Part shown: positions 551-20,668 of the stretch, in pieces | Layout of the letters: each line of letters begins with the position of its first letter | Position numbering within the stretch: position 1 is the stretch's first letter | Source of the DNA: a virus | Direction: 5' to 3' (one strand) | Virus record (IMG/VR): IMGVR_UViG_3300013126_000207 | Coordinates: 1 to 26,465 of that record | DNA length: 26,465 nt | The notes under the pieces: generated by a model | Told to the model about the DNA's origin: nothing | What the model saw: the letters and a program-made list of their open reading frames with translations, nothing else | The model's database searches: none | Program-made: the position numbers and the translations under genes

Positions 551-563
551 TATGCGCACCCTA
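551..563 (-). repeat. Conserved intergenic element, copy 1 (TAGGGTGCGCATA)
   Basis: Read on the minus strand, the element starts with the TAG stop codon of the 2231-residue ejection protein and continues GGTGCGCATAGAC, followed by an A/T-rich stretch. It lies about 50 bases before the tail fibre start codon. It is one of five similar copies in the leftward arm (others at 9577, 15378, 18552 and 20655). Promoter, regulator site or module joint are all possible. Confidence 0.6.
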
Positions 564-3500
564 GCGCTTGCTGTCAGGGCTAGCTGCACCACTAATCGTA
601 CCTCGTACAGCATCTAGCGTAGAGGTCGGCTCTATATCCCCTTGCCCCACGCCTGCAAGATAGCCTAGAGGCTTGTTCGCTGCGGTAACTGGTACGCCTG
701 TCAACATCGCAATCAGTGTTAAAGAGTCTTTAATCGCGCGGCTTGCGCTGCCATCATCCGCAATCGCTTTGTATATGCTATGAGGCGCGCGGCCTGCTGA
801 CTCTATCGCACCAATCGCCGGAGCTGAAGCTAAACGATCGTCGTATTGCTGCGGAGTAAATCCCGCCACGATACGAGTTGTTATAGGCCCTGCGATAGGC
901 ACCATGGCTGCGGTCGTGCGTAATGGCGCACCAAAAAAGAAACTAAGAAACTCGTCCAGGTAGCCGTCGTCCTCGTCATCATCCCCTCCACCACGCATCC
1001 CTTGCACGATAGCCTCAGCAACCCATGCGGGAACTAGGAACCCAGCGAACGCGATAAAGGTTAGTTGTCCTGCACCTTTCTTGATCCCGAACTCCTGTGT
1101 CACGTTAGCGACTGACGTGCCTAATACGTTAGCTTGCATATTGAAGTAACTGGCGAACTGCGTAAAGATACGCGCCCATGCGGGGCCAGTCTCATAGCGA
1201 GAAAGGTCTTCCGGTTTGATAGAGCCTTGAGTCTCACGCACTGTGCTATTAGCAAAGCGCACGGCATCTTTTTCGTTTAGGTTTTCTGCAAGTGCCTGGT
1301 TGTATGCGCCTGTCCAAGCAATCACATCGACAAAGTTCTGCGCGGCCTGCTGCATAAAGTAGGCGTGCTTGCTTGTCCAGGCTTTCGCTTCCTCGTACTT
1401 GGTCGGATTGATAAGCATATCCTCGATCTCGCTTCGTAGCTCGAAGCTCTGATCGCCTAGCCTGGTATTCATGAAAGTAGACGAGGCCGCCACGCTTTCG
1501 GCGGTCTGTGTCGGGTTCTTAATGTATTGCACGAACGCAGCTTTCAAGTGCGTAGGTTTGACTTTCAACGCAGCGATACTAAACCCCGTTAATTGTTGCA
1601 GTGTGTTAGTCACGTTAGCGAACATGGTTGCCATGCCTGCGCGTGATCGTGCAGCGCTAAAGAATTTATCCAGGGCCTTGCCTGCTGTACCTGTGCTCGG
1701 TGTCTGTACGATCTGCTTTGCTGCGCGATTAAGCCATGGCAATAGCATATCAGTATAGGCCACCGGATCGTAGCGGGTAAGCTTGCCGCCCATTGCTCGA
1801 AGTGTACGCATAACGTCCCGTACGTGAGTCTCCATGTGAGAGAACAAGAGCACTTTATCTATGTGCTGAGGTAATAGGCGAAGGTCTAAAGCTAGGGGGC
1901 GGTTGTACTCGACGCGAGATTTGGTGAAGCCTCGGCTCGCTGCGGGGAACATGAAAGCGTTACCTGCGTTCACGTCTTCTAGCGCCTGATTGATTACTGC
2001 GTCTTGCACCTCGAATGTATCGGTAAGTGCAGGAATGTACCCGCCACGATAGGTGCCGAAAGGAGTGGTAAAGCTTTCAGCACTGATTTCGTCAAAGTAC
2101 CGCCCGAAGACTTCGCGATGCGTTTTTTGCGCTAGAGGCTTGGTCTCTTCCAGTAGATCCCATACCCCCTGCACAAAGTCAAAGTGTGTTTTCGTCAGCT
2201 TGCCTTCATCTACCATACGAGCGATGAAGCTATCCCACTTGCTAGTATCTAGGCTCTTGTCTTCGCGTTCTACAGCCCACCCACGACCCAGTAGCAACTT
2301 GCGCTTGTTACTTGCGTTGCCTGTGTGGGCTATGGCATGGAGAAGCTCGCTCATGCCTGCGTCGCCTTTTGAATAGCCGAAGGTATAGCCGATCTCAGGC
2401 GCAGCGATGCGCCCAGGACGAAGGGAAGGTTCTACGCTTTTCAGCAAGTCGCGATAGGCGGATAGGTACTTGCGTACATCAATGCGGTATCGGTCTGCGG
2501 CCTCGGATACGGGGGTGAACACGTAGGCTCTAAAGCCGCCGGTTATCTTGCCTCCGTCCATGCGAGACACCCAAGACTCTACACGACGCAAGGCTGCACG
2601 CGCACCGAGCAGGACGCGGATCGCTTTCTCTTTCTCTGTGACTGCATGGCCTTCACCTGGTACTTTGTCCGGCATACCTAAAACATCAAGGCGTGCGCCT
2701 AGAGTTTCTACCACTTGTTCACGATCTACCAGCTTACCGTCAATCTCGACTTGTTTCTCGCGACGAGCCAAGTACCATAAGCTTTCTACTTGGTCGCTAA
2801 GTGCGCGCAGCTCGTCGACTGTTAAGTCTTTCATGTCTTTGGCGTTATCCTGCGCCTGCTGCACGTCCGCTTCGATTGCTGCATAAAGCTCAGGATCATA
2901 GGCTTTCACCGCCTCAAGGTATTTGCGCGGGTTTTGCCCACGGGCACCGATACCAAACTCAGCAAGAATGGCCTTCGTCGCGTTGACTAGATCCAGGTTA
3001 TGCGATCCTTTCAGATTATCAATCTTAGACGCTGCTATTTTTCTAAAGCGTTGTAACAATTTAGTAGCATCTGCTTGTGACTGGTATGCTTCACGGGTCG
3101 TGGCATGTTGTACCAGCTGATTGCGCTTCTGCGTGATCGCCATATCGCGGTCACCTTTGCGCATTGCCTCTTCCGCAAGTTTGCCCGCCTTGGCTGCATC
3201 TCTAGCAAACTTGTTCGGGCGTAAGTCTCTAACTTTAGTTTGTCCTATTTTCTGCTTAGCGTAATCTTTTGCCATGCGTGATAAGGTACGGGCTGAGCCT
3301 AGCGCCTTTTGCAAACCTGCTAGCTCAGTGGCGATTATCTTGGTGCGTACATCGTTATGGATCGCGGCGTCTGCCGCCTTCGCCACGGCTTCAGGTGTTG
3401 CAACTTCGCCATGCTGCTCAAGCATGCGCGTATCGGTAATGGCCTCGATCACATCCTTTATCGGAGGAGCGTCTATCAAGGCGCGTACAAGCTCGTCCCC

Positions 3501-6500
3501 TGAGGCAAAGCCGAACATATCCGCCACTAGATCCGGGTGCATACCGTCCTCGGCTAATGCACCGTATTGCCCATACCCTAGCTTCTGCCAGTTGATAGAG
3601 GGCTTAGCACTAAGCCTTGCGGTAATCTCTGCTGCGGTCAGTGTTTCGGTAGGGTACTCCGGCTTGTTCGGCAGCGACGACCATCTGAAAGTGTCATCTT
3701 TTATTTTCTGTACGCGATAGTTTTCCTTAGCGTTGACTAGCACTTCCCCTGCTAGCACTCTAGTCAGGGCATCTGAGTCGGTATCGTTAGTCGCATACAT
3801 CGCCTTGAGTGCGGGCAATGAGAGCTTAGATCCTTCTATTTTCGAGATTACGCCGTCGTTCTCAGTCTCGCCACGCTTCAGGAAGCGCAAAGCTTTGTAC
3901 ACTGGTTCGTCCTGTACTTCGGCAGCGACTATGGCACGGGTCTCTTTACGCAATGCGTTTGCATCCTTGTTGATGCGCTGCACGGTACGCTCGCGTAATC
4001 GAGACACCCAAGTCATATCCTTGAGGCTCTTAGCTTCCAGTGCTGTGATTGCATCCTGTGCGCTTTGCACCGACTCCCGAGCGTACTCATGGAAGGCTTC
4101 AGGTGTCATGCCTGCCTCTTCCGGTGAGTTGAATAAGAGCGACATATTGCGTGCTTGCCTGGCGTTGTCGATTTGATCTTGTGTTGCGATCATGCGATCG
4201 AACACTGCACGCACTTCAGGGTTAAGCGTTTCCCCCGCATTGGTGAGATAAGACATCATGTTACGGTAGACGTTAGAAAGCCATGCACGGAAGCGCTGGA
4301 ATATAGGTTGTAGTGCCAGGTTAGGCGCTTGACCTTCGAAGAGGTAAGCCTCGAACCCTTCGGCTAGTTTCTCATGGTGTGCGCGTTGTTGCTCGAAGCT
4401 AAGCGCGTGCCATGCGTCTAGCTGCTGCGTGAGTTCGCCTTGCAAACCGAACCAGTTAAAGACGGTTTGCATATCCTCAAGTATTTGGGTTTCTGCTTCA
4501 GTTGCGCCGCGCAGTGCGATCTGCTCTGCGAGTGCGATGTCCATTGCTAGGAATGAATGCCCAAGCTCATGTAAGAACGTCGAAAGGTCGGCGTTCTTGA
4601 GTAGGCTTATGGTGTTAGTGCTAGGAGAAAATCCCCCGCGAGTAGTGCTTAGTCGGGAAGATTCTTGGTTCTGTCTCTGAGGTTCTGCACTGACTCCTCC
4701 GCCATCTTCCGGAATATTTCCTTGAAGTTTGGAATATCCGCTCCGCGTGCCTTTGTAGACGGAGTCTGTGATTTCTCCTGTTTGGTATTGGTTGTCAAGT
4801 TCATTTTGTAACCTTTCAAGTAGATTATTATCCTCCACTATAGGTAAAGTTTCAAGGGGTACTATTTTTTGATTGCCTTTACCTAGCGAATTATCGACGG
4901 CGACAAATTCTACGCGAGGATCTTCACGGTATTTCTCTTGCAGTTTGCGGATAGTAGTAGACACCCCGATATGTGTATCTGCGTGCACTTGCAGCGGTAC
5001 AGTTCTACCCATTCGCATAGCCCTTGGAAGTGCCCCCATTACTAGGGCCTCTACCGGATCGCGATACGTATATTGAATACCTACGCTTCTACCGGAGGCT
5101 AAAGCCTGTTCTATCTTACTTACGGCGGAATCGTACGTATTCATATTTGTATCGTAGATGATGTCTGCGCTGTCAAATAAAGTTTTACCGTCCTCCAAGT
5201 GCAAAGATGTTGATTTACCTGCGCCCGTGCCCCCGGCAGTAAACAAGACGAAAGGTAGTCTTCCCTCTGCTACAGGTTGAGCGAGTTTTGCTTTATAAAG
5301 GTCTTTGATAAATTTACTTGCGGCCTCGTGAACATCGCCTGACCTGGATCTGTCTGCTCGATACTCAGGTGAAAGTTCTCGAGCTTCGTCCGTATTGAGA
5401 ATGCGTCCGCCATCTGTAGTGGATCTGCCTTCGCTGTCTTTTAAATTTGCATACTCATTCGTAGCAGCCGTGAAGTCTGCACTAATTTTATCTGCAAGGG
5501 CTTTGCCTATTCCGTTCTGGTTAAAGCTTTCCCCGGTGACGCTTTGCCCTGTGATCGTTAACGGGTTACGATTGAATAGTTCTGTTGGGGTAATCCCCAT
5601 TGCAGCTGCGCGCACGGCATAGTAACTGCTTGCCAGTGTCGCATAGGTATCGTTAACGCTCGGGCTAGTGTGGCCTGCCTGATTGAGCTGTGTTTTCAGC
5701 AAGCCCTTGACATCATTAGCTGACGCCTTGAAGTTCTCGTCCCCTTGTACCTTGCCGAGGCTTTGCTCTATCTGCTTGTTAAACTCTTCCTGGTACTGCT
5801 GCTGAAACACCTCAGACTCAGCGAACGTCATGCCGTCAGCATCTAGCTTGATGTGGTCGATTAGTTGCTGGTTGAAGTCTGATCCCGCGATCTGCGCTGC
5901 GTACTCGTCAAACGGTATGCGAATACTGCCGCCTGTCTGTAGTGCTTCCTCAAACTGCGTGGCGATAGCAGGCGAGACTTGCGCCAGTTGCTCAGCGACG
6001 CCACTTTGCGCCAAGACCTGAGCATCTACGTACACGTCTTGCACGGGGCCGTCTTCCAAGGCGCTTGCGACGAACTGCCGGAAGGTCTCAGGATCTCGCG
6101 CTTTCACCTGGCTATTTCGGCTTACCTCGTCCAGTTGTTGCAGAGTCTCACGGTGAACGGTTGCCTGCTCTGAGGCAATAACTCTATCCTTATCACGGCT
6201 TGCCAGTTGGTTTGCTACATGTAGACCACTGCCCATGAACAAAGTCGCTAGTGTGGTTTGTACGGCGATGTCAGGAATAGACTTAACGTAATCGCCCCAA
6301 GACACGTTAGGGTTTGCGATTGCGGTATCTACCGCGCCTTGCGCTATCTCTTCCGCAATCTCTGTAGGTACAGCGCGCTTTAAGTACCCTTTAACAAAAC
6401 TGCCTGCGGCCTCTTTGCCGAAGTTCTTAGCCACGAAAGCTAGCGGGTTGATGTCCGCGACCTCGATAGCCGACTGTATGCCAGCATTGGCGAAAGACTC

Positions 6501-7256
6501 TAACGGAGTACCGCCACGCATGCGGGTGTCTGCATAGGTGGTAGGCGCATACTGCGCTGTAGATATACCGACCCCCACTAATGGATTGCGTGTCACTATC
6601 GTGGCAGCGGTGGCGGGTAGCATCTTGCCTACACTATCCAAAGCACCAAAAGCCATGCGTCCTGCGTAGTTGTCTTCTAGGTTAGGGTCTTCGTACTTTG
6701 ATCGAGCAACGGCTCTTTGATATGCGGTCTTTGCGTCTTCCGTGGTGTTCTCCATGTTCATGAAGTTGCCTAAGAAGTCCGCGCCCGCAATGCGCATGCC
6801 TTGTCTTACCATTTCGGGCCATTGCTTTAGTTTGCTACCTAGCGCAATCGCCCAGTTATCCTGTTCCGGCGCCTGCAACCCGTTAGGGTCTTTAAGTTTT
6901 ACTTTGTCATATAAAGGCGGGTTTTGTGGCGGGTGCTGATACTTGGAAATAATTTTCTCGATGTCCGATAAATTCTCGGTGTCATCGTGCGCGATCGCTG
7001 CGAAGCTAGGCTCTTGCATCTGCTTCGCTAGTTTTGGGGAATTTTTTACGAGGTTATCCCAATAGAGTTGGTCTTGCTCTTCTTCTAGCTGCGGCAGGTT
7101 TTCTGCTGCAAGCAGGGCGTCCACTCCGGTAGCGCGGGACAACTTGATACCTTTTGCAGCGGTCTCCGGCTGAAAGGCTTTAGCTGTAGGCAGGGGGTTA
7201 ACTAAAGCTTCAGATCCCCCGTAGATTTCGTTTAGAACTTTAGGGTCGATAGCCAT
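561..7256 (-). CDS. Giant ejection / polyvalent internal virion protein with kinase-like and metallopeptidase-like domains
   Basis: A 2231-residue protein in the place of T7 gp16, the large internal core protein ejected with the DNA. Three regions stand out. Residues about 650-810 hold a P-loop, GGTGAGKS (675-682), followed by RDPVEALVMGALPRAMRMG, resembling zeta-toxin/UDP-sugar kinase folds. Residues 896-900 are HELGH, a zincin zinc-binding motif, with a Glu-rich segment (EGFEAYLFEG, from 966) placed where a third ligand would be. Residues about 2000-2045 (STVRETQGS, FTQFASYFN) resemble the conserved C-terminal domain of large phage polyvalent proteins. A hydrophobic helix lies at about 2065-2085, just before the acidic run GDDDEDD. 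The ATG overlaps the preceding stop by one base (TAATG), so translation is coupled. The virion role is inferred from position and size; the enzyme domains from motifs only. Confidence 0.85.
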   Translation of the reverse strand: MAIDPKVLNEIYGGSEALVNPLPTAKAFQPETAAKGIKLSRATGVDALLAAENLPQLEEEQDQLYWDNLVKNSPKLAKQMQEPSFAAIAHDDTENLSDIEKIISKYQHPPQNPPLYDKVKLKDPNGLQAPEQDNWAIALGSKLKQWPEMVRQGMRIAGADFLGNFMNMENTTEDAKTAYQRAVARSKYEDPNLEDNYAGRMAFGALDSVGKMLPATAATIVTRNPLVGVGISTAQYAPTTYADTRMRGGTPLESFANAGIQSAIEVADINPLAFVAKNFGKEAAGSFVKGYLKRAVPTEIAEEIAQGAVDTAIANPNVSWGDYVKSIPDIAVQTTLATLFMGSGLHVANQLASRDKDRVIASEQATVHRETLQQLDEVSRNSQVKARDPETFRQFVASALEDGPVQDVYVDAQVLAQSGVAEQLAQVSPAIATQFEEALQTGGSIRIPFDEYAAQIAGSDFNQQLIDHIKLDADGMTFAESEVFQQQYQEEFNKQIEQSLGKVQGDENFKASANDVKGLLKTQLNQAGHTSPSVNDTYATLASSYYAVRAAAMGITPTELFNRNPLTITGQSVTGESFNQNGIGKALADKISADFTAATNEYANLKDSEGRSTTDGGRILNTDEARELSPEYRADRSRSGDVHEAASKFIKDLYKAKLAQPVAEGRLPFVLFTAGGTGAGKSTSLHLEDGKTLFDSADIIYDTNMNTYDSAVSKIEQALASGRSVGIQYTYRDPVEALVMGALPRAMRMGRTVPLQVHADTHIGVSTTIRKLQEKYREDPRVEFVAVDNSLGKGNQKIVPLETLPIVEDNNLLERLQNELDNQYQTGEITDSVYKGTRSGYSKLQGNIPEDGGGVSAEPQRQNQESSRLSTTRGGFSPSTNTISLLKNADLSTFLHELGHSFLAMDIALAEQIALRGATEAETQILEDMQTVFNWFGLQGELTQQLDAWHALSFEQQRAHHEKLAEGFEAYLFEGQAPNLALQPIFQRFRAWLSNVYRNMMSYLTNAGETLNPEVRAVFDRMIATQDQIDNARQARNMSLLFNSPEEAGMTPEAFHEYARESVQSAQDAITALEAKSLKDMTWVSRLRERTVQRINKDANALRKETRAIVAAEVQDEPVYKALRFLKRGETENDGVISKIEGSKLSLPALKAMYATNDTDSDALTRVLAGEVLVNAKENYRVQKIKDDTFRWSSLPNKPEYPTETLTAAEITARLSAKPSINWQKLGYGQYGALAEDGMHPDLVADMFGFASGDELVRALIDAPPIKDVIEAITDTRMLEQHGEVATPEAVAKAADAAIHNDVRTKIIATELAGLQKALGSARTLSRMAKDYAKQKIGQTKVRDLRPNKFARDAAKAGKLAEEAMRKGDRDMAITQKRNQLVQHATTREAYQSQADATKLLQRFRKIAASKIDNLKGSHNLDLVNATKAILAEFGIGARGQNPRKYLEAVKAYDPELYAAIEADVQQAQDNAKDMKDLTVDELRALSDQVESLWYLARREKQVEIDGKLVDREQVVETLGARLDVLGMPDKVPGEGHAVTEKEKAIRVLLGARAALRRVESWVSRMDGGKITGGFRAYVFTPVSEAADRYRIDVRKYLSAYRDLLKSVEPSLRPGRIAAPEIGYTFGYSKGDAGMSELLHAIAHTGNASNKRKLLLGRGWAVEREDKSLDTSKWDSFIARMVDEGKLTKTHFDFVQGVWDLLEETKPLAQKTHREVFGRYFDEISAESFTTPFGTYRGGYIPALTDTFEVQDAVINQALEDVNAGNAFMFPAASRGFTKSRVEYNRPLALDLRLLPQHIDKVLLFSHMETHVRDVMRTLRAMGGKLTRYDPVAYTDMLLPWLNRAAKQIVQTPSTGTAGKALDKFFSAARSRAGMATMFANVTNTLQQLTGFSIAALKVKPTHLKAAFVQYIKNPTQTAESVAASSTFMNTRLGDQSFELRSEIEDMLINPTKYEEAKAWTSKHAYFMQQAAQNFVDVIAWTGAYNQALAENLNEKDAVRFANSTVRETQGSIKPEDLSRYETGPAWARIFTQFASYFNMQANVLGTSVANVTQEFGIKKGAGQLTFIAFAGFLVPAWVAEAIVQGMRGGGDDDEDDGYLDEFLSFFFGAPLRTTAAMVPIAGPITTRIVAGFTPQQYDDRLASAPAIGAIESAGRAPHSIYKAIADDGSASRAIKDSLTLIAMLTGVPVTAANKPLGYLAGVGQGDIEPTSTLDAVRGTISGAASPDSKR

Positions 7257-9016
7257 TATTTTTGTCCTGCTAGGTAGTATTCCTGAATTGATGTCTCGGT
7301 CGGCTCGATGCCGTTCTTGCGTAATGCGTTGCTGATTCTGGCACGAAGCGCTTGGGGTACGCGCACGGCAGTTGCGCTGCGGTCTTGAACGCCCGCAAAG
7401 TCCGCCTCGGTTCGGGTAAAGGCTTCACCATGCGCGATACCTAATACCGTACTTCTGTACTTCTTATCCACAAAGAGGTTATCTACCAGTTTCTTCACCT
7501 CAACCTGCGAAGCTTTCTCCCCGGCGCGTTCCTGATATTGTTGGAGGATTGGCTCTAATGTAGTGATAGCACGCGCTTTGATCTCTGCTTGCTTCTCTTT
7601 TTTAAGTTCAGAGAATGGCTTGCCATCCACTATCGCACCTTGTAAGCGGGACTCCAAGTAGCTTGCGCCAGTCTGCAACGTGGCTAGTTCGGGCGCGTTC
7701 TTAGGGTTACGGTACTTCTCTTGTAGAGATAGCACCTCGTTCACCGTCGCCGCGGATATTTTTTTCTCTTTGACTAACGGTAGCAAAGTCTCTTTAAGGT
7801 CTACGTTCTTGTACTTGTCCGGGTTGATGATGATGTCCTGCTTCACTAGCAAGTCGTTGATGGTCTTATCCATAGAGTCATTCGACATGGCCCGTGCGTG
7901 AGACTCTGCGCTGCGGGCTTCGCTTAGCATTTCGTCGTTATGTTGATCCACTGCCTGACTCGCTTTAAGATACAGCTCCGGCTGTGTTTTCAGCGGTGCG
8001 AGTAGTGCGGTCTTGGCGGCTGCGCCGATAGACCGCTTCGCGTTGATTGCGTCACCGATTGCGCTTTGCACGGGGGCGAGGGCTTTCTCCTCGATGTCCT
8101 TCTTGAACCTGTCCTCTGCACCTTGTTGGTCGCGAAGTTGTGCGATCACTTCTTTGCGCTTTTCGCCTGTGTAGTTTTCACGGGCGAATGCCTCAGCTTT
8201 TGCATAGTCGAGTTCACCCCCGCGCACTTTGGTCATGAGGTCGTCTGCTGCTTTTTGAGACTCTTGTAGGCGTCCGCCCAGCTCTAAGGCTTTCTCTATT
8301 TTCGCTTGATGATCGCCGAGGATAGTATTCTTGTGGCTATAGTAGTATGCCTTCGCCTCGTCGATTTTATCGTTCTGCTGAAGTGTTTCCAGTACCCCAA
8401 GGTGTAGCTTGGTGGTCTCGGTCTGTACCATTAGCGCTGCGGTCTGTGAGTCTTTACCCTGCGCTTGTGCTTGTGCGGTCACTGCTGCCGTGATACGTTT
8501 TAACGCTTCAGGAGCTGCGGCAGGGTCAGCGGCAGCACTATTGATTTGCGCAATGATGTTTGCCTTAGTCTCTTCCTCCACGGCCTTGCCGTTTTGTTCG
8601 GCGGCATGACTTCCAACGTACCCGCGAAAGCCCGGCATGTGCTTATCTGCGATTGCTTGCAATGCTTGTGCTATGCGGTTATTCGGTGCGTCTTTTACAT
8701 AGCGCGCCACCGTATCGCCGTAAAACTTGTCGGCTTCCTCAACCAAGCCCGAGGCGTTAAGCCCTTCGCGTTTTCTCGCTTGGATTTTAAAGTCGGTAAT
8801 TTCGGATAGGAAGTTAGCCTCGGCCTTGTTTGCGAGTGCGGTGTCTTCTTTGTCCTGGTACTGCTGCGCAACATCGCCTATCGCAGATAGCCCCTTGCCT
8901 ATGGTTTGCGCGTTTTGACTGTTATCGAATAGAGCAGGTGACGCGATACTTTGTTGTCGTGCGCCGGGTAATGCCTGCTCTTCTACTTGTTTGGTATAGA
9001 TCGGGATTGTTGCCAT
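7256..9016 (-). CDS. Internal virion / DNA ejection protein (T7 gp15-like position)
   Basis: A 586-residue, largely helical protein rich in Ala, Gln, Lys and Glu, with no signal peptide or membrane segment. It starts MATIPIYTKQVEEQALPGAR, a proline-containing N-terminus often seen in podovirus core proteins. The rest is long amphipathic helices, fitting a stacked internal core or trans-periplasmic channel subunit like T7 gp15. It sits between a gp14-like and a gp16-like gene and overlaps both by one base (TAATG), so the three should be made in linked amounts. The assignment rests mainly on gene order and protein character. A catalytic motif was not found. Confidence 0.75.
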   Translation of the reverse strand: MATIPIYTKQVEEQALPGARQQSIASPALFDNSQNAQTIGKGLSAIGDVAQQYQDKEDTALANKAEANFLSEITDFKIQARKREGLNASGLVEEADKFYGDTVARYVKDAPNNRIAQALQAIADKHMPGFRGYVGSHAAEQNGKAVEEETKANIIAQINSAAADPAAAPEALKRITAAVTAQAQAQGKDSQTAALMVQTETTKLHLGVLETLQQNDKIDEAKAYYYSHKNTILGDHQAKIEKALELGGRLQESQKAADDLMTKVRGGELDYAKAEAFARENYTGEKRKEVIAQLRDQQGAEDRFKKDIEEKALAPVQSAIGDAINAKRSIGAAAKTALLAPLKTQPELYLKASQAVDQHNDEMLSEARSAESHARAMSNDSMDKTINDLLVKQDIIINPDKYKNVDLKETLLPLVKEKKISAATVNEVLSLQEKYRNPKNAPELATLQTGASYLESRLQGAIVDGKPFSELKKEKQAEIKARAITTLEPILQQYQERAGEKASQVEVKKLVDNLFVDKKYRSTVLGIAHGEAFTRTEADFAGVQDRSATAVRVPQALRARISNALRKNGIEPTETSIQEYYLAGQK

Positions 9017-9522: not shown

Positions 9523-9576
9523 AGTTAGAACCCCTTTAAGAACGATAGCTTGAAGTCTAGCGTTGTTTCAAAAAGG

Positions 9577-9589
9577 TATGCGCACCCTA
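9577..9589 (-). repeat. Conserved intergenic element, copy 2 (TAGGGTGCGCATA)
   Basis: It begins with the stop codon of the tail nozzle gene and reads on as CCTTTTTGAAACAACGC. The next start codon, of the gp14-like gene, is 55 bases away. Its 13-base core is identical to copy 1, and the T-tract that follows resembles copy 3. Confidence 0.6.
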
Positions 9590-11623: not shown

Positions 11624-12262
11624 TTAGCGTCTCCAAGCCGTCGCATGTTTCGCGTCGCGAACGTCAGTACCTCTTGCACTTAGCCATGAAGGTACGTGCG
11701 CCGTTTGGTTGTTCTGATTGTTTGCGTCACTCGCTGCGGCCTCTAGGAAGGTTTTCTCTGCGAGCTTTTTCATTTCAGACGCTAGCTTCATGCCTGTGCT
11801 GCCTTTAACGATTGGCCCCACGATACGACTTGCCAGCAAGTGCGCCAATGCCTCGATAAATAGTGGGGTGTATTTGGTAGTATCCGTAATAACTGCGGTG
11901 TACTTCAGCACGGCATTCTCAACATTGGTCAAGATACGATCGCCTTCGATGATGTAGTCCTGCCGATTCTCGTCATCTGTATAAGCGCCGAGCAACACGG
12001 CTAGAGGTTTTAGCATATCGCTAGGCTTCGCGTACTGATACTTCCACACGTCAGTCGTTGCGGTAGCGTGTAAGCTAAGGGCTACGCGCTTCGTAGCGAA
12101 ACCCCAAGAGTGGCGCTCTAGTAACTGATTGCGCGCCAGTGCGTAGAAACGAGAGCATTGCAGTGCTTGTACAGTGCTATCTGGCGGGTCAATAGACGAC
12201 ACGTTCGCTTCGTCCCCGATCAATCCTAAGGCTAAATTACAAATATCTACTTCAGAAGCCAT
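11624..12262 (-). CDS. Head-to-tail adaptor (T7 gp11-like tail tubular protein A)
   Basis: A 212-residue protein starting MASEVDICNLALGLIGDEA. The motif ICNLALGLIG, the segment ALARNQLLERHSWGFAT and a helical C-terminus are typical of the podovirus adaptor that docks under the portal and receives the nozzle. In minus-strand order it lies directly before the nozzle gene. Its ATG overlaps by one base (TAATG) the stop codon of the small repeat protein upstream, which is good evidence that the upstream frame is translated to its end. Confidence 0.87.
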   Translation of the reverse strand: MASEVDICNLALGLIGDEANVSSIDPPDSTVQALQCSRFYALARNQLLERHSWGFATKRVALSLHATATTDVWKYQYAKPSDMLKPLAVLLGAYTDDENRQDYIIEGDRILTNVENAVLKYTAVITDTTKYTPLFIEALAHLLASRIVGPIVKGSTGMKLASEMKKLAEKTFLEAAASDANNQNNQTAHVPSWLSARGTDVRDAKHATAWRR

Positions 12263-12736
12263 TATCGCAGTCTCCGTCTAAATTGTTGATGTATTGCCCC
12301 CGTACCTGCGCTTGCTACGATAGGCGTATCGTTGAAGCCTGTACTACTGAGTGTTAGCGGTTGCAAGGTTCTAACCAATCCGGCAGCGATGTCTAATACC
12401 GCATTACTAGCCGCGGTAAGGGCTGCGAGCGTTTTGCTAGCGATACCAGTAATCGACAATGCCCCTTGCGACGTAGATGTTAGTGCAGCTAGAGTTGCAC
12501 TTCCGCTACCTTCTAAGCCTCCTATTAGATCCCCGGATGATGCCCCGGTAAGGGCTGCAAGCGTTTTACTTAATCCGCCTTGAATATCTACAGAAGCTTG
12601 CGACGCGGATGTTAGTGCGGTCTCGTCCGCCTACGAACTGGATAGGTCTACCTGTGTCGCCTTGGGCTAAGCCTTCCCAAGCGATCAAGTGCGCCCCTCC
12701 TGATATTTCTGTTACTACGGCAGCAATTTCTGCCAT
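12262..12736 (-). CDS. Repeat-containing virion-associated protein, broken by an apparent +1 frameshift
   Basis: ATG at 12736 has a strong AAGGGG site 8 bases upstream and begins MAEIAAVVTEISGGAHLIAW, but that frame ends after 56 residues at 12566. The neighbouring frame has no stop from about 12630 to 12262 and carries two copies of a 44-residue module, ALTSASQ...SKTLAALTGAS and ALTSTSQ...SKTLAALTAAS. Its stop overlaps the adaptor start by one base. Joining the frames near 12622-12632 gives one protein of about 157 residues; the 475-base span is one base longer than a multiple of three. The only start in the second frame on its own is a TTG at 12459, without a convincing ribosome site. A mutation, an assembly error or programmed frameshifting are all possible. 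The function is unknown; a small tail or head decoration protein is likely. Confidence 0.55.
12415..12620 (-). repeat. Two copies of a 132-base in-frame repeat
   Basis: Near-identical blocks recur exactly 132 bases apart: GGTAAGGGCTGC (12415 and 12547), running into GCGTTTT, and TTGCGACG (12466 and 12598), running into GATGTTAGTGC. 132 bases is 44 codons, so the repeat keeps the reading frame. The frame break in this gene lies at the edge of the 5'-most copy on the coding strand, which suggests repeat slippage or recombination as a cause. Confidence 0.7.
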
Positions 12737-12758
12737 GTTATATACCCCTTAAAATGGG

Positions 12759-12780: not shown

Positions 12781-12791
12781 GCTTTCCTGCT

Positions 12792-12968
12792 TTAGCTTAA
12801 CGCTGCGGCTTCTTTTTTGCCGTCGTCTTTAGGCGTTTCTTTCACTTCTTTGACTTCGCGCATCCACTTACCTAACTCTTTCTTGTCTTTAATCTCAAAG
12901 ACATCGCCAGGGTTGCGTAGGTGGTTGCCGTAGTACCCTAAAGCTACTGCTTCTACTTTAATCGCCAT
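12792..12968 (-). CDS. Small virion-module protein of 58 residues, function unknown
   Basis: A 58-residue frame with ATG at 12968, starting MAIKVEAVALGYYGNHLRNP, then GDVFEIKDKKELGKWM and a charged Lys/Glu tail. Short proteins with a GYY...R.P/GEVF.I...KWM pattern often sit beside the capsid gene in phages, but none has a function I can name. The cement gene's stop lies only 17 bases upstream, and GAGAGGA provides a ribosome site. It ends just before the hairpin at 12759. Its position and ribosome site make it a real gene. Confidence 0.7.
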   Translation of the reverse strand: MAIKVEAVALGYYGNHLRNPGDVFEIKDKKELGKWMREVKEVKETPKDDGKKEAAALS

Positions 12969-12985
12969 TTTTCAAGTCCTCTCTA

Positions 12986-13447: not shown

Positions 13448-13462
13448 TATGTTTCTCCTTAA

Positions 13463-14467: not shown

Positions 14468-14479
14468 AATTTATGCCCC

Positions 14480-15097
14480 TTATTTTTTCATGTTTGATTT
14501 AGGGTAGAGCGATACTGGGTCAGAAGGCCCCGGTGCGTCAGTGCTTCGCACTATCAGCTTATCGTCTGCTACCGCGTTCCCGATCTTTACGAACATCCGT
14601 ATCACTTCGGGGTGATTACCAAAGCCTGTACTCTTCAGAAGGTCTTTGATTTGAGGGGTGCCAAACGCTGAAAGCGCTTTGTTTGCGACCGCTAAATTCT
14701 CAGAGAACTTCTCGCCGCCGAACTCTTTGTCCGTCCGCGATTGTTCTATCCACTCCCGTTGTGTTGCCTGGTATTGTTCAGCCTGTTTTGCTTGTTGCTG
14801 TATGTTGAGGTCGACTAATGCTTGCGCCTCTTCGTGTGTTAGGTTCTTGGCCTTGACGAACTCAAGGAACTTTGCGCCTAGCTCAGGGTCTAGCGTGATC
14901 CCCTCAGGGAGCTTAGGCTCAAAAGGCAACGGATTAGCCGGAATCTCCGGGGGTGCGTTGCCTTCTGCTGGTGTTTCTGCGGGAGCGTCTGTCGCATTAG
15001 GCGCAGCGTCCCCTAATACTGGTGCAGCGCCCTCGGCAGGCACGTCTGTTACAGGTGCATCCGTTGTTTGATCCTGCGCTTGTTGCTCTTCAGCCAT
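14480..15097 (-). CDS. Capsid scaffolding protein
   Basis: A 205-residue acidic protein directly before the capsid gene. Residues 1-55 are Ala/Pro/Glu/Asp-rich and probably disordered; residues about 80-125 form a Gln-rich helix (LTHEEAQALVDLNIQQQAKQ); the C-terminal half has EFGGEKFSENLAVANKALSA and GFGNHPEVIRMFVKIGNA. The last two are characteristic of scaffold or scaffold/protease proteins of podophages. A catalytic triad was not recognised, so scaffold alone is favoured. The short basic C-terminus (YPKSNMKK) fits a coat-protein contact. Confidence 0.82.
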   Translation of the reverse strand: MAEEQQAQDQTTDAPVTDVPAEGAAPVLGDAAPNATDAPAETPAEGNAPPEIPANPLPFEPKLPEGITLDPELGAKFLEFVKAKNLTHEEAQALVDLNIQQQAKQAEQYQATQREWIEQSRTDKEFGGEKFSENLAVANKALSAFGTPQIKDLLKSTGFGNHPEVIRMFVKIGNAVADDKLIVRSTDAPGPSDPVSLYPKSNMKK

Positions 15098-15098
15098 A

Positions 15099-15347
15099 TT
15101 ATTTACCTTGTAAAATATCCGCCCACTTATCGGGGGCTATGGTTATGATCTCGTCGGTTAGAAACAGAGCGAAGTTTCTGCGCCCTTCGTTAAATGCTGC
15201 TAGGTGAGTGTCCTCGCCTGCGAAGGTAGACCTGTAAAGGCCCGCCGTATCCAGCATGCGGCGCAACACTCGGCGTCCTCTGCTGTCCGATAGAAGCCAT
15301 TTCATGTCCTCAATCTCGGCGGCGCGTCTCTTCTCTGCTTCAGTCAT
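15099..15347 (-). CDS. Bbp19-like small head-module protein
   Basis: An 82-residue protein, MTEAEKRRAAEIEDMKWLLS, with DSRGRRVLRRMLDTAGLYRS and FNEGRRNFALFL. This pattern is that of the Bbp19-type proteins found between portal and scaffold in BPP-1 relatives; the role is unknown. It is the first gene after a conserved intergenic element (copy 4), and its stop lies one base before the scaffold start. No enzymatic motif is visible. Confidence 0.75.
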   Translation of the reverse strand: MTEAEKRRAAEIEDMKWLLSDSRGRRVLRRMLDTAGLYRSTFAGEDTHLAAFNEGRRNFALFLTDEIITIAPDKWADILQGK

Positions 15348-15377
15348 AGCTGGAACGATACGCGGATTTTTTTAGGG

Positions 15378-15391
15378 TTTGAGCACCCCTA
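15378..15391 (-). repeat. Conserved intergenic element, copy 4 (TAGGGGTGCTCAAA)
   Basis: It begins with the portal gene's stop codon and continues CCCTAAAAAAATCCGCG, sharing AATCCGCG with copy 3. The next start codon, of the Bbp19-like gene, is 30 bases away. It differs from the consensus by having CAAA where the other copies have CATA. Confidence 0.55.
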
Positions 15392-17083
15392 CGCCGGGGA
15401 CGCGGAAGAGTACCCGCTGAACTGTCGCATTACGTCAGATAAAGCGTTATCCTCCCCCGAGGGGATGCCTGCCAAACTGCCCGCAGTCTTTGCCATTTCA
15501 GCGGCTTGCGCCATGGCTTGCTGCTGCGCTTGTTGCTGTGCGCGAGCGGTACGGATCTCAGTCACTCGGTCATCTGCTACGATGAACTGAGGGTCTACGC
15601 CCATCATTTCGCCGTAGCCGTCAATGATCTGGTCGGTGTCCAGTTTGTCCCACACGCTCGGGTCTTGCTTCGCGGCTGCTAGATTGCCTACAGTCATGAG
15701 TAATCTATCCAGTGAGCCTAAGCCTACCGCGCGCTGCGCCTGGGCCAAGGTCGATACGAACTCGACTTTCAGGTTCATGCCTTCCAGTTCAGGCGGTGGG
15801 GGCGGCACTAAGTCCGCCTCGAGCATGTGCTGGAATGTCATGTCGATAAGCGGGCTTAACATTTCGTTATGCAAACGCTCTAGCACTGGCCCGAGCATGA
15901 GTAGCTTCTCTTCGTGGCGTTCTGCGATCTCGGTCGCTGTGATCCCGCTGCGGTTATCGTTAGCCAGCATCATGAACAGGTCAGCGTAGAACGCTTCGCG
16001 GGTGCGGCCTCGCACATCGTTGATGTCCTCGAGCAGATAGCTCAAGTTTAGCTGCACGTCGAAAGCGCTACGGATACCGTTCTGAGGCCCTACCATGTCG
16101 ACGTAAGTCAACCCGCCCGGTAACAGGTCGTTTGGTTTGTCTTTCATCGCGATAGGGGCTTGCAATGGTGGCTTGGTCTGATAGTCGATAGCCTCGCCTT
16201 TGCGGAGTTGTTCGTGTTGCAGCTGAATGACATCGCCTAGTGCGCGCATGCCTGGACTGTGCCCGTAAATGTCGCCACTCCGTACCGACCATCTAGGCAC
16301 TAGCAGGGGGAACTCGTCGAATCCTCCTTCGCTAAGTGGCTTCTGTGCATCGCCTGCGGCCTCAAAGTAGCATGACTTGAAGCGCTTGTTCTTGCCGTCT
16401 TTCTTGCCGTACTCGCGCTCGTTCTCCGCGCGAGGCTCTACTGCGTGCATGACTGTGATCCATGCGTCATAGTTTTTGCGGTCGTATTGATTCTTGACGT
16501 TTTGGCTGACGTTCTCTAGACCGAACTTCTGCACCATCTGCGCCACAGTCATAGGTATTTCGCGGTAGCAGGTATCGACCACACCGCGGTAATCCGTACT
16601 GATCGCATACTCGCCCGCCGTAAGCGGGTAGAATCTAATCACGTCGTTAAAGTCTGATTGCACGAAGCTTGCTGCCGTACCAAATGCGCCTAGCTCTTCG
16701 TACATGGTATGTAACGAGCGATAAGTATTAGACCGCGAGAAAATCTCGCGCATGACTTTAGAGCTTTTGAATAGCCATTGTTTCACAGGGTCGTATTGTT
16801 CTAGGTCGTCGTCTGGAATACCTAAACGGAACCAAGGCCGCGCCGGGCTAGTCATGCCGGACATCAAGCCAGCGCCTAGAATATCCAGTGCGCCCGTTGC
16901 GGTACTATCCAGAATATTGCGATTGCGCGATCCACCTTTGTTACGGTCGCTGCTAAGATACCGTCCGCTGCGAGGCAATAGATACTTGGAGATTTCCTTG
17001 TAATCCTGTAGCCAGGTTTCGCGCTCGTTGTTTAACGTAGCGTTGCGGCGTTTATATCGGGTGATTGGTAGTTCGTGATCCAT
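15389..17083 (-). CDS. Portal protein (head-to-tail connector)
   Basis: A 564-residue protein. Its N-terminal part (RYKRRNATLNNERETWLQDY, ISKYLLPRSGRYL, ILDSTATGALDILGAGLMSG) is the signature of the podovirus head-tail connecting protein family. The C-terminal end is Gln/Ala-rich (about residues 510-532, RAQQQAQQQAMAQAAEMAK), as in the helical barrel end of other portals. It forms the dodecameric ring at the packaging vertex, with the terminase docking outside and the gp11-like adaptor below. It starts at ATG 17083, four bases after the stop of the 234-residue gene. The next gene begins beyond conserved element copy 4. Confidence 0.92.
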   Translation of the reverse strand: MDHELPITRYKRRNATLNNERETWLQDYKEISKYLLPRSGRYLSSDRNKGGSRNRNILDSTATGALDILGAGLMSGMTSPARPWFRLGIPDDDLEQYDPVKQWLFKSSKVMREIFSRSNTYRSLHTMYEELGAFGTAASFVQSDFNDVIRFYPLTAGEYAISTDYRGVVDTCYREIPMTVAQMVQKFGLENVSQNVKNQYDRKNYDAWITVMHAVEPRAENEREYGKKDGKNKRFKSCYFEAAGDAQKPLSEGGFDEFPLLVPRWSVRSGDIYGHSPGMRALGDVIQLQHEQLRKGEAIDYQTKPPLQAPIAMKDKPNDLLPGGLTYVDMVGPQNGIRSAFDVQLNLSYLLEDINDVRGRTREAFYADLFMMLANDNRSGITATEIAERHEEKLLMLGPVLERLHNEMLSPLIDMTFQHMLEADLVPPPPPELEGMNLKVEFVSTLAQAQRAVGLGSLDRLLMTVGNLAAAKQDPSVWDKLDTDQIIDGYGEMMGVDPQFIVADDRVTEIRTARAQQQAQQQAMAQAAEMAKTAGSLAGIPSGEDNALSDVMRQFSGYSSASPA

Positions 17084-17086
17084 GGT

Positions 17087-17791
17087 TTAGCTTCCTAATA
17101 GCGTCACTTCATCGGGTGTGGTCGGCCCTGCGCCGCCCCCTGCGTTACCCCCTTGGCGACGCGCTGCCGTATTCTCTGCCTGCTCAGGGCCCCCTTGCGC
17201 AAATTGTTTTTGTTGAAATGCGCTATAGGCATACGCCACGATGTCAGACCCTTTGTTCACTTGCGCGAAGTAAAGCCCTTCGTTACTGGCGTCTGGTCGT
17301 AGATATAACTGATTTTCGCCTAGGTCTCCGCTTGAGTTGCGGGACATAGTGTTCGGATCTAGCGCGATACCTGATAGTTTTATGCGTTGTTTTGCGGGGG
17401 TTCCGTAAAGCATATCTATGGCAGAATTACCGTTAGGGTTTTGCATTCCCCCCATGCCAATTACCCCGCTGCCTAAGGGCTCTTTCACTTTTGGACTATC
17501 AATCTCCGCGTACACATTACCTTGTGCATCTGTCACCAGGCGAGAAAACCTGCCCCCGTGCATTTGGTAAGGGTTTTCTTTCGGCGCCTGGTTCATTCCT
17601 GATAGATTGAATAAGCCTCCCATACCGATTTGCTGCTTTGGCTCCGGGGGAGGCGCTACGCTCTTGATGTCCAGCATGAGGCCATTTAACGCCTTGCCGT
17701 CTGCGAATACCTGCCCGGTCTTATCGAAAGTGAAAGACTTGTAGTACCCGGAAGGCGGGGTATATGCGGGTGCTTGTGGCGTTGTTGACAC
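17087..17791 (-). CDS. Gly/Pro-rich virion-module protein of 234 residues, function unknown
   Basis: The likely start is GTG at 17791, one base after the upstream gene's stop (TAACGTG), so translation is probably coupled; no ATG exists before residue 39. The chain starts MSTTPQAPAYTPPSGYYKSF. It has low-complexity Gly/Asn/Gln stretches and ends GGGAGPTTPDEVTLLGS. The C-terminal TLLG(S) matches the end of the 94-residue protein just upstream. Such tags are common in small head-module proteins beside podovirus portals. The role is unknown; a minor head or portal-associated protein is plausible. Confidence 0.7.
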   Translation of the reverse strand: MSTTPQAPAYTPPSGYYKSFTFDKTGQVFADGKALNGLMLDIKSVAPPPEPKQQIGMGGLFNLSGMNQAPKENPYQMHGGRFSRLVTDAQGNVYAEIDSPKVKEPLGSGVIGMGGMQNPNGNSAIDMLYGTPAKQRIKLSGIALDPNTMSRNSSGDLGENQLYLRPDASNEGLYFAQVNKGSDIVAYAYSAFQQKQFAQGGPEQAENTAARRQGGNAGGGAGPTTPDEVTLLGS

Positions 17792-17792
17792 G

Positions 17793-18077
17793 TTAGCCGC
17801 CTAGCAATGTGGTTGTGCCCAGGGTCGGCTTCTTGAGGTCTTCTTCGCCTAGGGCTGAACCGTCTGTCAAGAAAGTAGCGCCCTGTCCGCCTTGCTGTGC
17901 GCGTCTAGTTTTCTCGCGTGCTATCGCAGGCGTCACGTTAGGATCACTCGGCGCTTGCGGCGTAGGTGGGGGAGGTGGCGGCGGAGGCGCAGACGGCGGA
18001 GATTTACCGCCTCCGCCACCCGCATTCGCTAAGGTCGAAGCCATTAGCAGTGCCAAAATAATAAATAGTTTTTTCAT
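17793..18077 (-). CDS. Small head-module protein with an N-terminal Sec signal peptide
   Basis: A 94-residue protein. Residues 1-19 (MKKLFIILALLMASTLANA) form a textbook Sec signal peptide with an ANA cleavage box and no lipobox Cys. A Gly run and eight consecutive prolines follow (PPPPPPPP, about 32-39). The C-terminal half (EKTRRAQQGGQGATFLTDG, ending TLLGG) resembles small proteins encoded between terminase and portal in podophages, which normally lack a signal peptide. Its ATG overlaps the GNAT-like gene's stop by four bases. Either this virion-type protein is exported, or a secreted protein has been inserted here; which is not clear. Confidence 0.72.
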   Translation of the reverse strand: MKKLFIILALLMASTLANAGGGGGKSPPSAPPPPPPPPTPQAPSDPNVTPAIAREKTRRAQQGGQGATFLTDGSALGEEDLKKPTLGTTTLLGG

Positions 18078-18505
18078 AGCTTCATCCTCAAGATTGCAAT
18101 GTCGGCAAGATAGTTGTCTTTAGGGTGGTACTGCGGAAGTCCGCCTACGTGCTCAAAGCCCAGTTTCATCGCCATGCGCTGGATACTGCCGAACGCCGTC
18201 CAGATCATTACTTGCTTCCAGCCTTGTGCTTTAGCGTACTCGCAGCCTTCCGTCAGCAAGGTACGAAACTTCTTGCCGTCGCCCATGATGTGCGGCGTCA
18301 CTACCCCGTTGAACTTGTTGCCTTCGCAACGCAGCATCGCGGTCTCGTCACCCCAAAGTATCTGATTGCCTGCGTGTATTTCGTTCGCGATGTAGATGAT
18401 CGCGTCCAGCTTCGTGTAGTCTGCTCGAATGTCAGTCGGATTTACATAGCGCCACAAAAGCTCCTGCACTTGTGGATCACGAATGTTTAACTCTCTGAAT
18501 GCCAT
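18074..18505 (-). CDS. GNAT-like acetyltransferase-fold protein
   Basis: A 143-residue protein with the layout of a GNAT domain. It has an N-terminal helix pair, a central strand (LRCEGNKFNGVVTPHIMG), an acetyl-CoA-type helix (FRTLLTEGCEYAKAQGW) and a C-terminal segment IQRMAMKLGFEHVGGLPQY. The last, with MKLGFEHVG, is the usual end of GNAT domains. The pyrophosphate loop (R/Q-x-x-G-x-G/A) is poor, so catalysis is uncertain. Comparable proteins sit between terminase and portal in several podophages. It overlaps the next gene by ATGA and begins after conserved element copy 3. Confidence 0.68.
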   Translation of the reverse strand: MAFRELNIRDPQVQELLWRYVNPTDIRADYTKLDAIIYIANEIHAGNQILWGDETAMLRCEGNKFNGVVTPHIMGDGKKFRTLLTEGCEYAKAQGWKQVMIWTAFGSIQRMAMKLGFEHVGGLPQYHPKDNYLADIAILRMKL

Positions 18506-18551
18506 GTCGCCCCCTAAACGTTTGAGGGATACTAGCGCGGATTAAAAAAGG

Positions 18552-18565
18552 TATGAGCATCCCTA
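18552..18565 (-). repeat. Conserved intergenic element, copy 3 (TAGGGATGCTCATA)
   Basis: It begins six bases after the terminase stop and reads on as CCTTTTTTAATCCGCGC. The next start codon, of the GNAT-like gene, is about 47 bases away. It overlaps the edge of a perfect 14-base palindrome (TACGGCTAGCCGTA, 18564-18577) that contains the terminase stop codon. Confidence 0.58.
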
Positions 18566-18568
18566 CGG

Positions 18569-20143
18569 CTAGCCGTAAGGGTTGTACTCTCGTCGCGCAT
18601 TGTGCTTAGTGCTTTGGGTTGGGTGAAGGATCTCGCGTGGGGTGAGTGGTGTATCCATGTTTGCTAGCACGTAAGCAGAGCCATAGTCAGGGCTGCGGCC
18701 TAAGCGCTTCACGATGTCTTCTCGGCTTTCGACCTTGATCTTGATGCCTGACATTGACCATTTTGGCGTAGTCAAATCCGCACGTAGTTGTTTGTTTGGG
18801 GGTAGTTGTATGCCTAGGTTGTTAGCTGGGTCTAGCGCCTCGCGCAGCTGCCACCATAGCTGTGTTCTCAGGTTGAAATATTGCAGGTTGCCCGACTTGC
18901 TCGTCGCTGTGGGGGCTTCCGCCACGTTGACGCCGTACACATCAAGCTCTGCCTGCCTAAGGAAGTCGTAAGGGCTAGAGCCGACGCCGATCACGTCCAC
19001 ATGAATGCGCGCCCTATCTCGCATAGCTGCGACTACCGCACCCGCAACGGTAGGGCCGTCAGGGGTTTGCGATCCGGCTAGCTCGATTGGATGATCGAAC
19101 CAGGTGTTATGGCGTCGTGCGATGATGGTCTTGTCCTTACCGCCTCGCGCCACGTCCACGCCCAGGCTATCCATGACTTGAAGCCGTGTGGGTTTAGTCC
19201 ATCGCTCCATGGCCTCGTCTACCCATGCGGTCGGTATCACTTGCCATGGGTCATCCTCGATGCCCGCCTTGAAGTCTCCGTACAGCATTTGACTACGCAA
19301 AGGCTCGGGCATGGCTTGTAATGTCGCCATGTAGCCAGTACCTACGAGGTGCGGGTTATCGGTGATCCGCGAAGGGATGAACGTGCGGCTCATAGGCTTG
19401 ATGATGTCCACGGGCTTGTATTTACTTTGATCGAAGTCGTAAATGCGGTCATCCCCTACAAGCACGAAAGGCTTACCGTCTTCAACCTCGAAGTCTTCCC
19501 CGTTAACTGTCGCGAAATAGCGAAGCTCGCCCGGCTCTGCGGGGTTTGGGTGTTTATCATCCAGCCATGGTGCAAAGAACGAGATTACCCAGCGACCTTC
19601 TGCTGTAGTCGGCGGGTTGAACGTGAGCAATGCCCGGCAGCGTTGGCCTTTTTTCGTGGTTCGCAGCCAGCCAAGTAAAAAGCGCACAGCCTTCTCGCGC
19701 AAGTTCGTTGCTTCATCGAACACTAGCATATCATGCGGGCGCCCTTGGTACTTGGTTTCGTCGCCGGGGTTAGGCACAGAGCCGAACTCGACTTGCCTAT
19801 CTGATAATCGCCAGATCTTTTCCTGCCCGTTAAAGCCGTCGCGCCCACCGAGTAGCTCTGTCATACGGTCGATGATGCCTGCTAACTGGGTAGACTCCTG
19901 CCGTATAATCATGCTGCGATCGTGCTGCGTCGTGGCTAAGCCTACCGCTAGATCGGTCTTACCGCCACCCGCAGCACCGCCATAGCCTACGATGTCGGCT
20001 AAGCTATTGAACGCTGCGGTCTGTGGCCCTGGCAACGGTTCCCATAGAGCCTCAGGGGCGCTTAGCAGTTTGTCTAGTTCGGCTTGCTCTTCGGGGGTTA
20101 GGTACGGCAAAAGCTCCGCAATCTGCGCTTCGGAGTAACTCAT
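18569..20143 (-). CDS. terL: Terminase large subunit
   Basis: A 524-residue DNA-packaging ATPase/nuclease. The Walker A is GGAAGGGKT (residues 55-63) and the Walker B MLVFDE (139-144), with coupling motif LLTFNPP (172-178). The C-terminal RNase H-like nuclease shows Asp330 in DSLGVDVARGGKDK and Asp383 in HVDVIG, with Asp486 a candidate third ligand. The length is usual for the family. Its ATG overlaps the small-subunit stop by four bases (ATGA). It acts with the small subunit and the portal to fill the capsid. Confidence 0.95.
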   Translation of the reverse strand: MSYSEAQIAELLPYLTPEEQAELDKLLSAPEALWEPLPGPQTAAFNSLADIVGYGGAAGGGKTDLAVGLATTQHDRSMIIRQESTQLAGIIDRMTELLGGRDGFNGQEKIWRLSDRQVEFGSVPNPGDETKYQGRPHDMLVFDEATNLREKAVRFLLGWLRTTKKGQRCRALLTFNPPTTAEGRWVISFFAPWLDDKHPNPAEPGELRYFATVNGEDFEVEDGKPFVLVGDDRIYDFDQSKYKPVDIIKPMSRTFIPSRITDNPHLVGTGYMATLQAMPEPLRSQMLYGDFKAGIEDDPWQVIPTAWVDEAMERWTKPTRLQVMDSLGVDVARGGKDKTIIARRHNTWFDHPIELAGSQTPDGPTVAGAVVAAMRDRARIHVDVIGVGSSPYDFLRQAELDVYGVNVAEAPTATSKSGNLQYFNLRTQLWWQLREALDPANNLGIQLPPNKQLRADLTTPKWSMSGIKIKVESREDIVKRLGRSPDYGSAYVLANMDTPLTPREILHPTQSTKHNARREYNPYG

Positions 20144-20625
20144 GCGAGATCGTCGTCTTGCTCTGCTTGAGGTGCAGTAAGTTTGCGCTGCGCAGCTTTC
20201 TCAAGTAATACCGCAATGGCTGAGGCTTTGTGCTCTACCAGGAGAGGCCCTTCGTCTTTGCCTGTCAGCTCTACGGCTTGCTTGTCGCCATATTTTTTAG
20301 GGCTCCATTTCGATAGCAGTTTTAGTCTCGTCTCTATGCGAAGCTTAGCGTGTGCCACGGCGCCTGTATCTGTACCGCCGTTATCTGTGCGCCCTGGTTG
20401 TTCGTCGGCTATGTCGATAGTGTTTTCTGCTATTGCGTCATGTCCTACCTCGCGCGCATACGCGAAGCGTCTATTAAAATCCTCGTCTTTTTCTTTCCAC
20501 AAATACACCGTTTGCCAACTCGGCATGTTTTCATCTCTGCAAATAGCTCTTAGCGTTTCGCCTTCCGCGATACGCGCTACGATTGTGTCTACTATCTCAG
20601 GTGTTTTGATTGTTGGTCTCGCCAT
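20140..20625 (-). CDS. terS: Terminase small subunit
   Basis: A 161-residue protein from ATG 20625 (MARPTIKTPEIVDTIVARIA). A longer frame reaches 20718 only through a TTG and would overlap the preceding gene, so the ATG is preferred. Residues about 5-50 form a helix-turn-helix (ETLRAICRDENMPSWQTVYL) for recognition of the packaging site. The segment AIAENTIDIADEQ and the later WSPKKYGDK are typical of Sf6-type small terminases. The gene overlaps terL by four bases. It begins 30 bases after conserved element copy 5. Confidence 0.87.
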   Translation of the reverse strand: MARPTIKTPEIVDTIVARIAEGETLRAICRDENMPSWQTVYLWKEKDEDFNRRFAYAREVGHDAIAENTIDIADEQPGRTDNGGTDTGAVAHAKLRIETRLKLLSKWSPKKYGDKQAVELTGKDEGPLLVEHKASAIAVLLEKAAQRKLTAPQAEQDDDLA

Positions 20626-20654
20626 GGTTTTATTTTCCAGTAATTCGCAAAAAC

Positions 20655-20668
20655 TATGCGCACCCCTA
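20655..20668 (-). repeat. Conserved intergenic element, copy 5 (TAGGGGTGCGCATA)
   Basis: It begins with the stop codon of the small HTH gene and continues GTTTTTGCGAATTACTGG. The terminase small subunit starts 30 bases later. This is the most upstream copy in the leftward arm, at the entry to the packaging and head genes. Confidence 0.6.

Follow-up and report, generated by a model that had tools for sequence, protein, structure and literature searches.

Probable late promoters and a candidate cognate HTH regulator in BPP-1-like podoviruses

What is the role of a short element that recurs between the virion genes of a phage, always on one strand and at the ends of gene blocks? The window (the whole stretch of DNA analysed here, a linear virus record of 26.5 kb that covers part of a genome) carries on its minus strand genes in the same order as Bordetella phage BPP-1: a repressor region, primase, a small HTH gene, terS, terL, GNAT, portal, bbp19-like, protease and capsid genes, then nozzle, ejection proteins, a large internal protein and the tail fibre. 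The initial annotation reported five minus-strand copies of the element at block ends, and all five are present where it placed them (Table 1). We consider it very likely that they are the promoters of a virion-gene regulon, served by a cognate phage late activator, the HTH protein. The sequence support consists of repetition, strand, position, fixed spacing, conservation, covariation of the HTH protein with the box, concerted allele switching and successful predictions. From these signals we infer that transcription starts at the sites, that the DNA there is bound by the HTH protein, which activates rather than represses, that it is made early, and that some of the resulting mRNAs are leaderless.

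Two other regions of the window deserve mention. At the bbp15 position (12262-12740, minus strand), a small protein apparently lies in two frames (MAEIAAV...QFVGG, then ADETALTSASQ...), which suggests a frameshift, either programmed or a sequencing error. At 23696-24739, a YdaS/Cro-like protein adjoins a LexA-like repressor on the opposite strand; this ordinary immunity region suggests a temperate phage.

The five window copies and their second half

The core of the originally proposed consensus, TAGGGnTGCkCATA, holds, with some adjustment: the n is optional (the copies at 551 and 9577 lack it, reading TAGGGTGCGCATA), the copy at 15378 ends in CAAA, and that at 18552 reads GATGCTCATA. As described, the TAG is the stop codon of the upstream gene at 551, 9577, 15378 and 20655, and at 18552 the motif begins six bases past the stop. 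In the window phage the T-rich tract is loosely present, and relatives do not keep it; BPP-1 has none. Searched literally with three mismatches allowed, the consensus gives 14 matches in the window against 12.3 expected, i.e., not above chance; the pattern AGGG[N]TG[CT][GT]C, with N optional, matches only the five copies when both strands are scanned. Below, the box GTGCKCATA is numbered 1-9 and offsets are counted from its first base.

Overlooked at first was the second half of the element. A hexamer TAnnnT begins at base 27 (17 bp past the box) in four of the five copies, and the fifth has GAAAAT. The combined pattern NTGCKCAWA-N17-KANNNT has six minus-strand matches in the window (the five copies and a weak intragenic one at 8553) and none on the plus strand, compared with a mean of 0.12 and a maximum of 1 in 300 dinucleotide shuffles. 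It should be noted that this pattern was derived from the window sites, so that the real test lies in relatives.

Among 50 distinct boxes that directly follow a stop codon, TAnnnT lies at offset 27 in 50% and at 26 in 26% (76% together), and no other offset between 10 and 40 has more than one site. For boxes away from stop codons the background is 0.2-1.8% per offset, but 4.4% at offset 27, probably reflecting true sites missed by gene calls. Similarly, in 129 boxes from HTH-bearing loci the hexamer is found at 27 in 55, at 26 in 10 and at 28 in 4, with no more than 3 at any other offset. By phage, TAnnnT at base 27 occurs at 3/3 sites in BPP-1, 3/3 in DC33, 4/4 in zth2-2 and 4/5 in the window. 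De novo searches to which the box was not supplied returned site clusters in the window (4 sites), BPP-1 (3), DC33 (3), zth2-2 (4), L119 (3) and L128 (3).

The start codon falls 5-8 nt past TAnnnT at 46 of 65 sites (about 70%), and exactly 6 nt past it at 27. Because a sigma-70 transcript would start at this point, the mRNAs of sites with this geometry, including those of bbp19-like, GNAT and some terS genes, should be leaderless. In the window the arrangement is seen at P1 (GAAAAT AAAACC ATG) and P3 (TATCGT TCCAGCT ATG); P2, P4 and P5 have leaders of 23-31 nt with Shine-Dalgarno sequences (at P2, a 23-nt leader with AGGGGG).

Table 1. Coordinates in the window of the predicted promoters P1 to P5, the HTH gene and associated start codons
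Feature	Position	Strand	Remarks
HTH protein, 56 aa (Bbp27-like)	20666..20836	minus	predicted activator binding the boxes; stop codon abuts P1
P1 box GTGCGCATA	20655..20663	minus	positions -38 to -30
P1 -10-like hexamer GAAAAT	20632..20637	minus	weakest of the five
terS ATG	20625-20623	minus	begins 6 nt past P1 hexamer; predicted leaderless
P2 box ATGCTCATA	18552..18560	minus	
P2 -10 hexamer TAGTAT	18529..18534	minus	predicted to drive 18505 through the portal gene
P3 box GTGCTCAAA	15378..15386	minus	
P3 -10 hexamer TATCGT	15355..15360	minus	predicted to drive bbp19-like, protease, capsid and nozzle genes
bbp19-like ATG	15347	minus	begins 7 nt past P3 hexamer; predicted leaderless
P4 box GTGCGCATA	9577..9585	minus	
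P4 -10 hexamer TAGACT	9554..9559	minus	predicted to drive three ejection-protein genes from 9522
P5 box GTGCGCATA	551..559	minus	
P5 -10 hexamer TACATT	528..533	minus	predicted to drive the tail-fibre gene
tail-fibre ATG	500-498	minus	gene extends beyond the window edge

The element and the HTH protein in relatives

An exact-motif search does not find the window's element at the junctions of 80 terL and 80 portal relatives. Scanning all viral contigs for the window sequence with its T tract gave 8 matches, a chance-like number. Absence of copies from the relatives' junctions was the observation that the initial annotation took as counting against the element. The exact sequence is indeed absent; yet a drifted cognate element occupies the same junctions, so judging by exact sequence would mislead. 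The searches come up empty because the box drifts with its protein. BPP-1, DC33, zth2-2, MW202640 and MW202722 carry their own box versions (e.g., GTGCCCGTG, GTACCCGTA) at the same junctions and with the same 17-bp spacing, as do dozens of metagenomic podoviruses. In BPP-1, GGGTGCCCGTGCC is found at terL>GNAT, bbp20>bbp19 and bbp10>bbp9, and DC33 has GGTACCCGTA at the matching places; thus, the word at a junction is lineage-specific rather than fixed. The predicted BPP-1 promoters of bbp19 and GNAT lie at 20746 and 24131 (minus strand), and the hexamer upstream of bbp9 reads TAGCCT. A DNA palindrome (GGTRYGCRYACC) was also considered as the conserved unit; it suits the window but fails in BPP-1.

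There are complications. BPP-1 lacks a box before terS. The sole other late-strand GTGCCCGTR in that genome (L177) is at 26293, just inside terS and without TAnnnT at 27; it may be a remnant, or else a control site. In several HTH-bearing groups (e.g., L014), no box was recognised by the search pattern. Separately, L021, L023, L029, L031 and L033 have another candidate box, CGTATGGCT, just past the HTH stop codon, with TAnnnT about 27-28 bases on; they probably represent a further allele group of this system, outside the pattern. A rough calculation puts false positives of the HTH-locus scan at about 0.1 per locus, so lineages with a single site are less certain and may include false boxes. 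Incidentally, the record of Limnohabitans phage DC33 (PQ492659; L178) is filed under Inoviridae, a label that looks wrong given its BPP-1-like podovirus genes.

Between the primase gene and terS, most of the related phages encode a Bbp27-like HTH protein of 56-80 aa; that of the window shares 47% identity with BPP-1 Bbp27 over 51 aa (tblastn). AlphaFold2 folds the L139 homologue into a tri-helical HTH (mean pLDDT 83); for this model, Foldseek against the PDB returned generic HTH matches only, none at E<=0.001, with sigma domain 4 among them and not distinctive. NCBIfam has no family for the protein, and no MotA family match to it was found in Pfam or PHROGs. It matches only the C-terminal HTH part of PHROG 6156 and resembles the HTH domains of HNH/homing endonucleases (PHROG 6156, 20467); the BPP-1 RefSeq record labels Bbp27 an endonuclease. 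Unlike those enzymes, however, it has no nuclease domain, sits before terS and is accompanied by a regulon of cognate boxes. The T5 D5 protein is needed for late transcription in T5, and 4 of 25 homologues show a weak match, at the level of the HTH, to D5-like regulators (PHROG 323). Between the primase and HTH genes of the window, at 20867-21117, GTGCAACAC / GTGTTGCAC iterons also form an array, pointing either way and spaced by 11 and 55 bp, that looks like a replication origin.

Covariation of the HTH protein with its box

Covariation supports the suggestion that the element is bound by the small HTH protein at 20666. The best of 195-225 variable residue-base pairs links a recognition-helix residue (D59 of L139) to box position 5: Asp goes with G in 10/10 cases, Lys with C in 12/13 and Asn with A in 2/2. 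In a family-wise permutation test, made on clustered proteins without a full phylogenetic model, p is <0.001 for 80% clusters (N=32), 0.0013 at 65% (N=24) and 0.004 at 60% (N=18). A second pair joins box position 7 to a residue of the N-terminal arm; it has p=0.007 at 80% and is not significant at coarser clustering. The pairings of Asp with C and Lys with G (read on the opposite strand) and of Asn with A (on the same strand) fit common contact preferences. There are exceptions to this code: Lys occurs with A in L292 (RKIC) and in L006, the partner of Arg is A in one group but C in a second, and position 5 is T in two of the window boxes. Importantly, covariation of this kind shows recognition, not activation.

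A natural allele switch provides a second line of evidence. L258 and BPP-1 share 91-97.6% DNA identity over long late-gene stretches, but the HTH protein reads ...STVRDIC in L258 versus ...GAIAKIC in BPP-1, and all three predicted L258 promoters have GTGCGCGTA where BPP-1 has GTGCCCGTG. Neither the host nor simple drift accounts for this concerted change of boxes following the HTH allele.

The code can also be used to predict boxes. MW202640 gave no cluster in the first de novo search; from its helix, AKIC, the box GTGCCCGTA was predicted, and this occurs four times, with TAnnnT at 27, at terL>GNAT, bbp19, nozzle>bbp12 and bbp10>tail, i.e., four of the five window junctions. In MW202722 (VQKIC), four GTACCCGTA sites occur as predicted at the same junctions. 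For Caulobacter phage SR18 (RDII), the predicted boxes GTGCGCATG and GTGCGCTTA are present, following the HTH gene and again at a late junction; here the prediction was borne out for the box only, as the hexamers deviate from TAnnnT at 27. A later set of loci was collected through the capsid protein, and their boxes were read unconstrained; of these, L258, L316 and L270 agree with the code, and L281 and L284 repeat the GRIC-with-A pattern.

Promoter class and alternative readings

In a logo of 58 sites (the metagenomic ones are partly redundant, and those from related contigs are not independent), G1, T2, C6, T8 and A9 are conserved, and positions 3, 5 and 7 are variable. Not one of these sites has a TTGACA-like -35 or the TGn of an extended -10 (0/58 for each), and a standard sigma-70 promoter scan stays below or at shuffle level. 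Set against a sigma-70 promoter with an activator box at -35, the element has the fixed -10 spacing and no usable -35 or extended -10, and the evidence for a trans-acting factor recognising the box is the covariation. We predict that the element is a promoter in which the box, at -38 to -30, takes the place of the -35 hexamer. Lacking both a -35 hexamer and an extended -10, such a site should leave host RNA polymerase in need of help, i.e., of a factor at the box. Of the options listed in the initial annotation, a late promoter or activator site is thus strongly favoured by the sequence, now with a -10 at fixed spacing and a cognate HTH protein.

The closest functional parallel is the T4 middle promoter, where the centre of the MotA box lies at -30 and the distance to the -10 is 12+-1 bp (PMC2988021). 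About half of these promoters have TGn. As in the MotA/AsiA system, a short non-palindromic phage box stands in for the -35, the sigma-70 -10 is kept and a small phage protein would be the activator (PMC2988021). The geometry is different, with the box at -38 to -30 and a 17-bp spacer, and so does not fit that of MotA; TGn is absent from all 58 sites; and MotA has a double-wing DNA-binding domain, whereas here the protein is a tri-helical HTH of 56-80 aa (L139 model). The best reading is that the system works like T4 MotA without being homologous to it.

The covariation would suit any binding role, and the box overlaps the polymerase footprint, so one could propose that the HTH protein acts as a repressor or road-block, keeping weak late promoters silent for as long as it is present. 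The stoperators of mycobacteriophage L5 are likewise asymmetric short sites in one orientation within short intergenic gaps; however, they have no fixed -10 partner. They are bound by the immunity repressor; the box here tracks the Bbp27-like HTH protein, presumably a separate factor. With neither a -35 nor TGn at any of the 58 sites, the bare promoter should be very weak, with little to repress, which makes repression the less economical reading; moreover, the strict 16-17 bp spacing to TAnnnT suits an activator at -35, and a road-block needs no fixed spacing. We regard repression as improbable.

A conserved box at -35 plus a -10 also resembles the promoter of an alternative host sigma factor, which would require no phage factor. 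We think this very unlikely: the -10 is the TAnnnT of the primary sigma, and the boxes of the near-identical BPP-1 and L258 differ, tracking each phage's own HTH allele.

Two further options, both raised in the initial annotation, find no support. An RNA-level element past the stop codon (a processing site, hairpin or terminator) might draw on the small hairpin possible in some copies (GGUG CGCA UACC at 9577) and on the T-rich tract following several of them, but the pairing is lost at 551 and 20655, an Rfam search gave no match, terminator-like sites are no commoner than in shuffles and BPP-1 has no T tracts; it would also leave TAnnnT, the start-codon distance and the HTH covariation unexplained, and we give it hardly any credence. 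Short homologous joints for module exchange are just as implausible, since boxes of only 9-10 bp that differ among phages cannot be shared joints across lineages, and they are accompanied by another fixed hexamer and by a cognate protein, even if the sites do fall between gene blocks and conserved boxes might secondarily guide recombination.

Returning to the activator reading, the proposed sequence of events is as follows. Early leftward transcription of the early/replication operon would make primase and the HTH protein. The latter would bind, as a small non-palindromic site, the 9-10 bp box directly past the stop codon (-38 to -30), which is followed by the 17-bp spacer and a minimal sigma-70-type TAnnnT; a recognition-helix residue would contact base 5 and the N-terminal arm, probably, base 7. 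Acting at -35 in place of sigma region 4, the protein would recruit or stabilise sigma-70 polymerase and turn on P1 to P5, with the mRNA often expected to begin at or beside a start codon about 6-7 nt past the -10. A bolder version, which we hold tentatively and at somewhat less than even odds, is that a one-domain HTH protein of 56-80 aa, kin of the DNA-binding tail of HNH endonucleases, alone replaces sigma region 4 at -35, that podovirus families run late transcription by interchangeable regulator-box alleles, and that leaderless mRNAs serve to translate much of the capsid operon.

BPP-1 serves as the model phage in work on diversity-generating retroelements. Full-text literature searches found nothing on Bbp27 or BPP-1 late promoters, and no assigned late regulator or late promoters for the BPP-1 family in the literature searched. 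The present analysis offers a candidate late regulator and candidate late promoters for this family together, as a testable late-gene switch. It also offers a readable protein-DNA code with natural orthogonal regulator-box pairs. For dozens of uncultured phages, start sites are predicted exactly; the operons of metagenomic contigs can be mapped by their promoters, and a number of late mRNAs become candidates for being leaderless.
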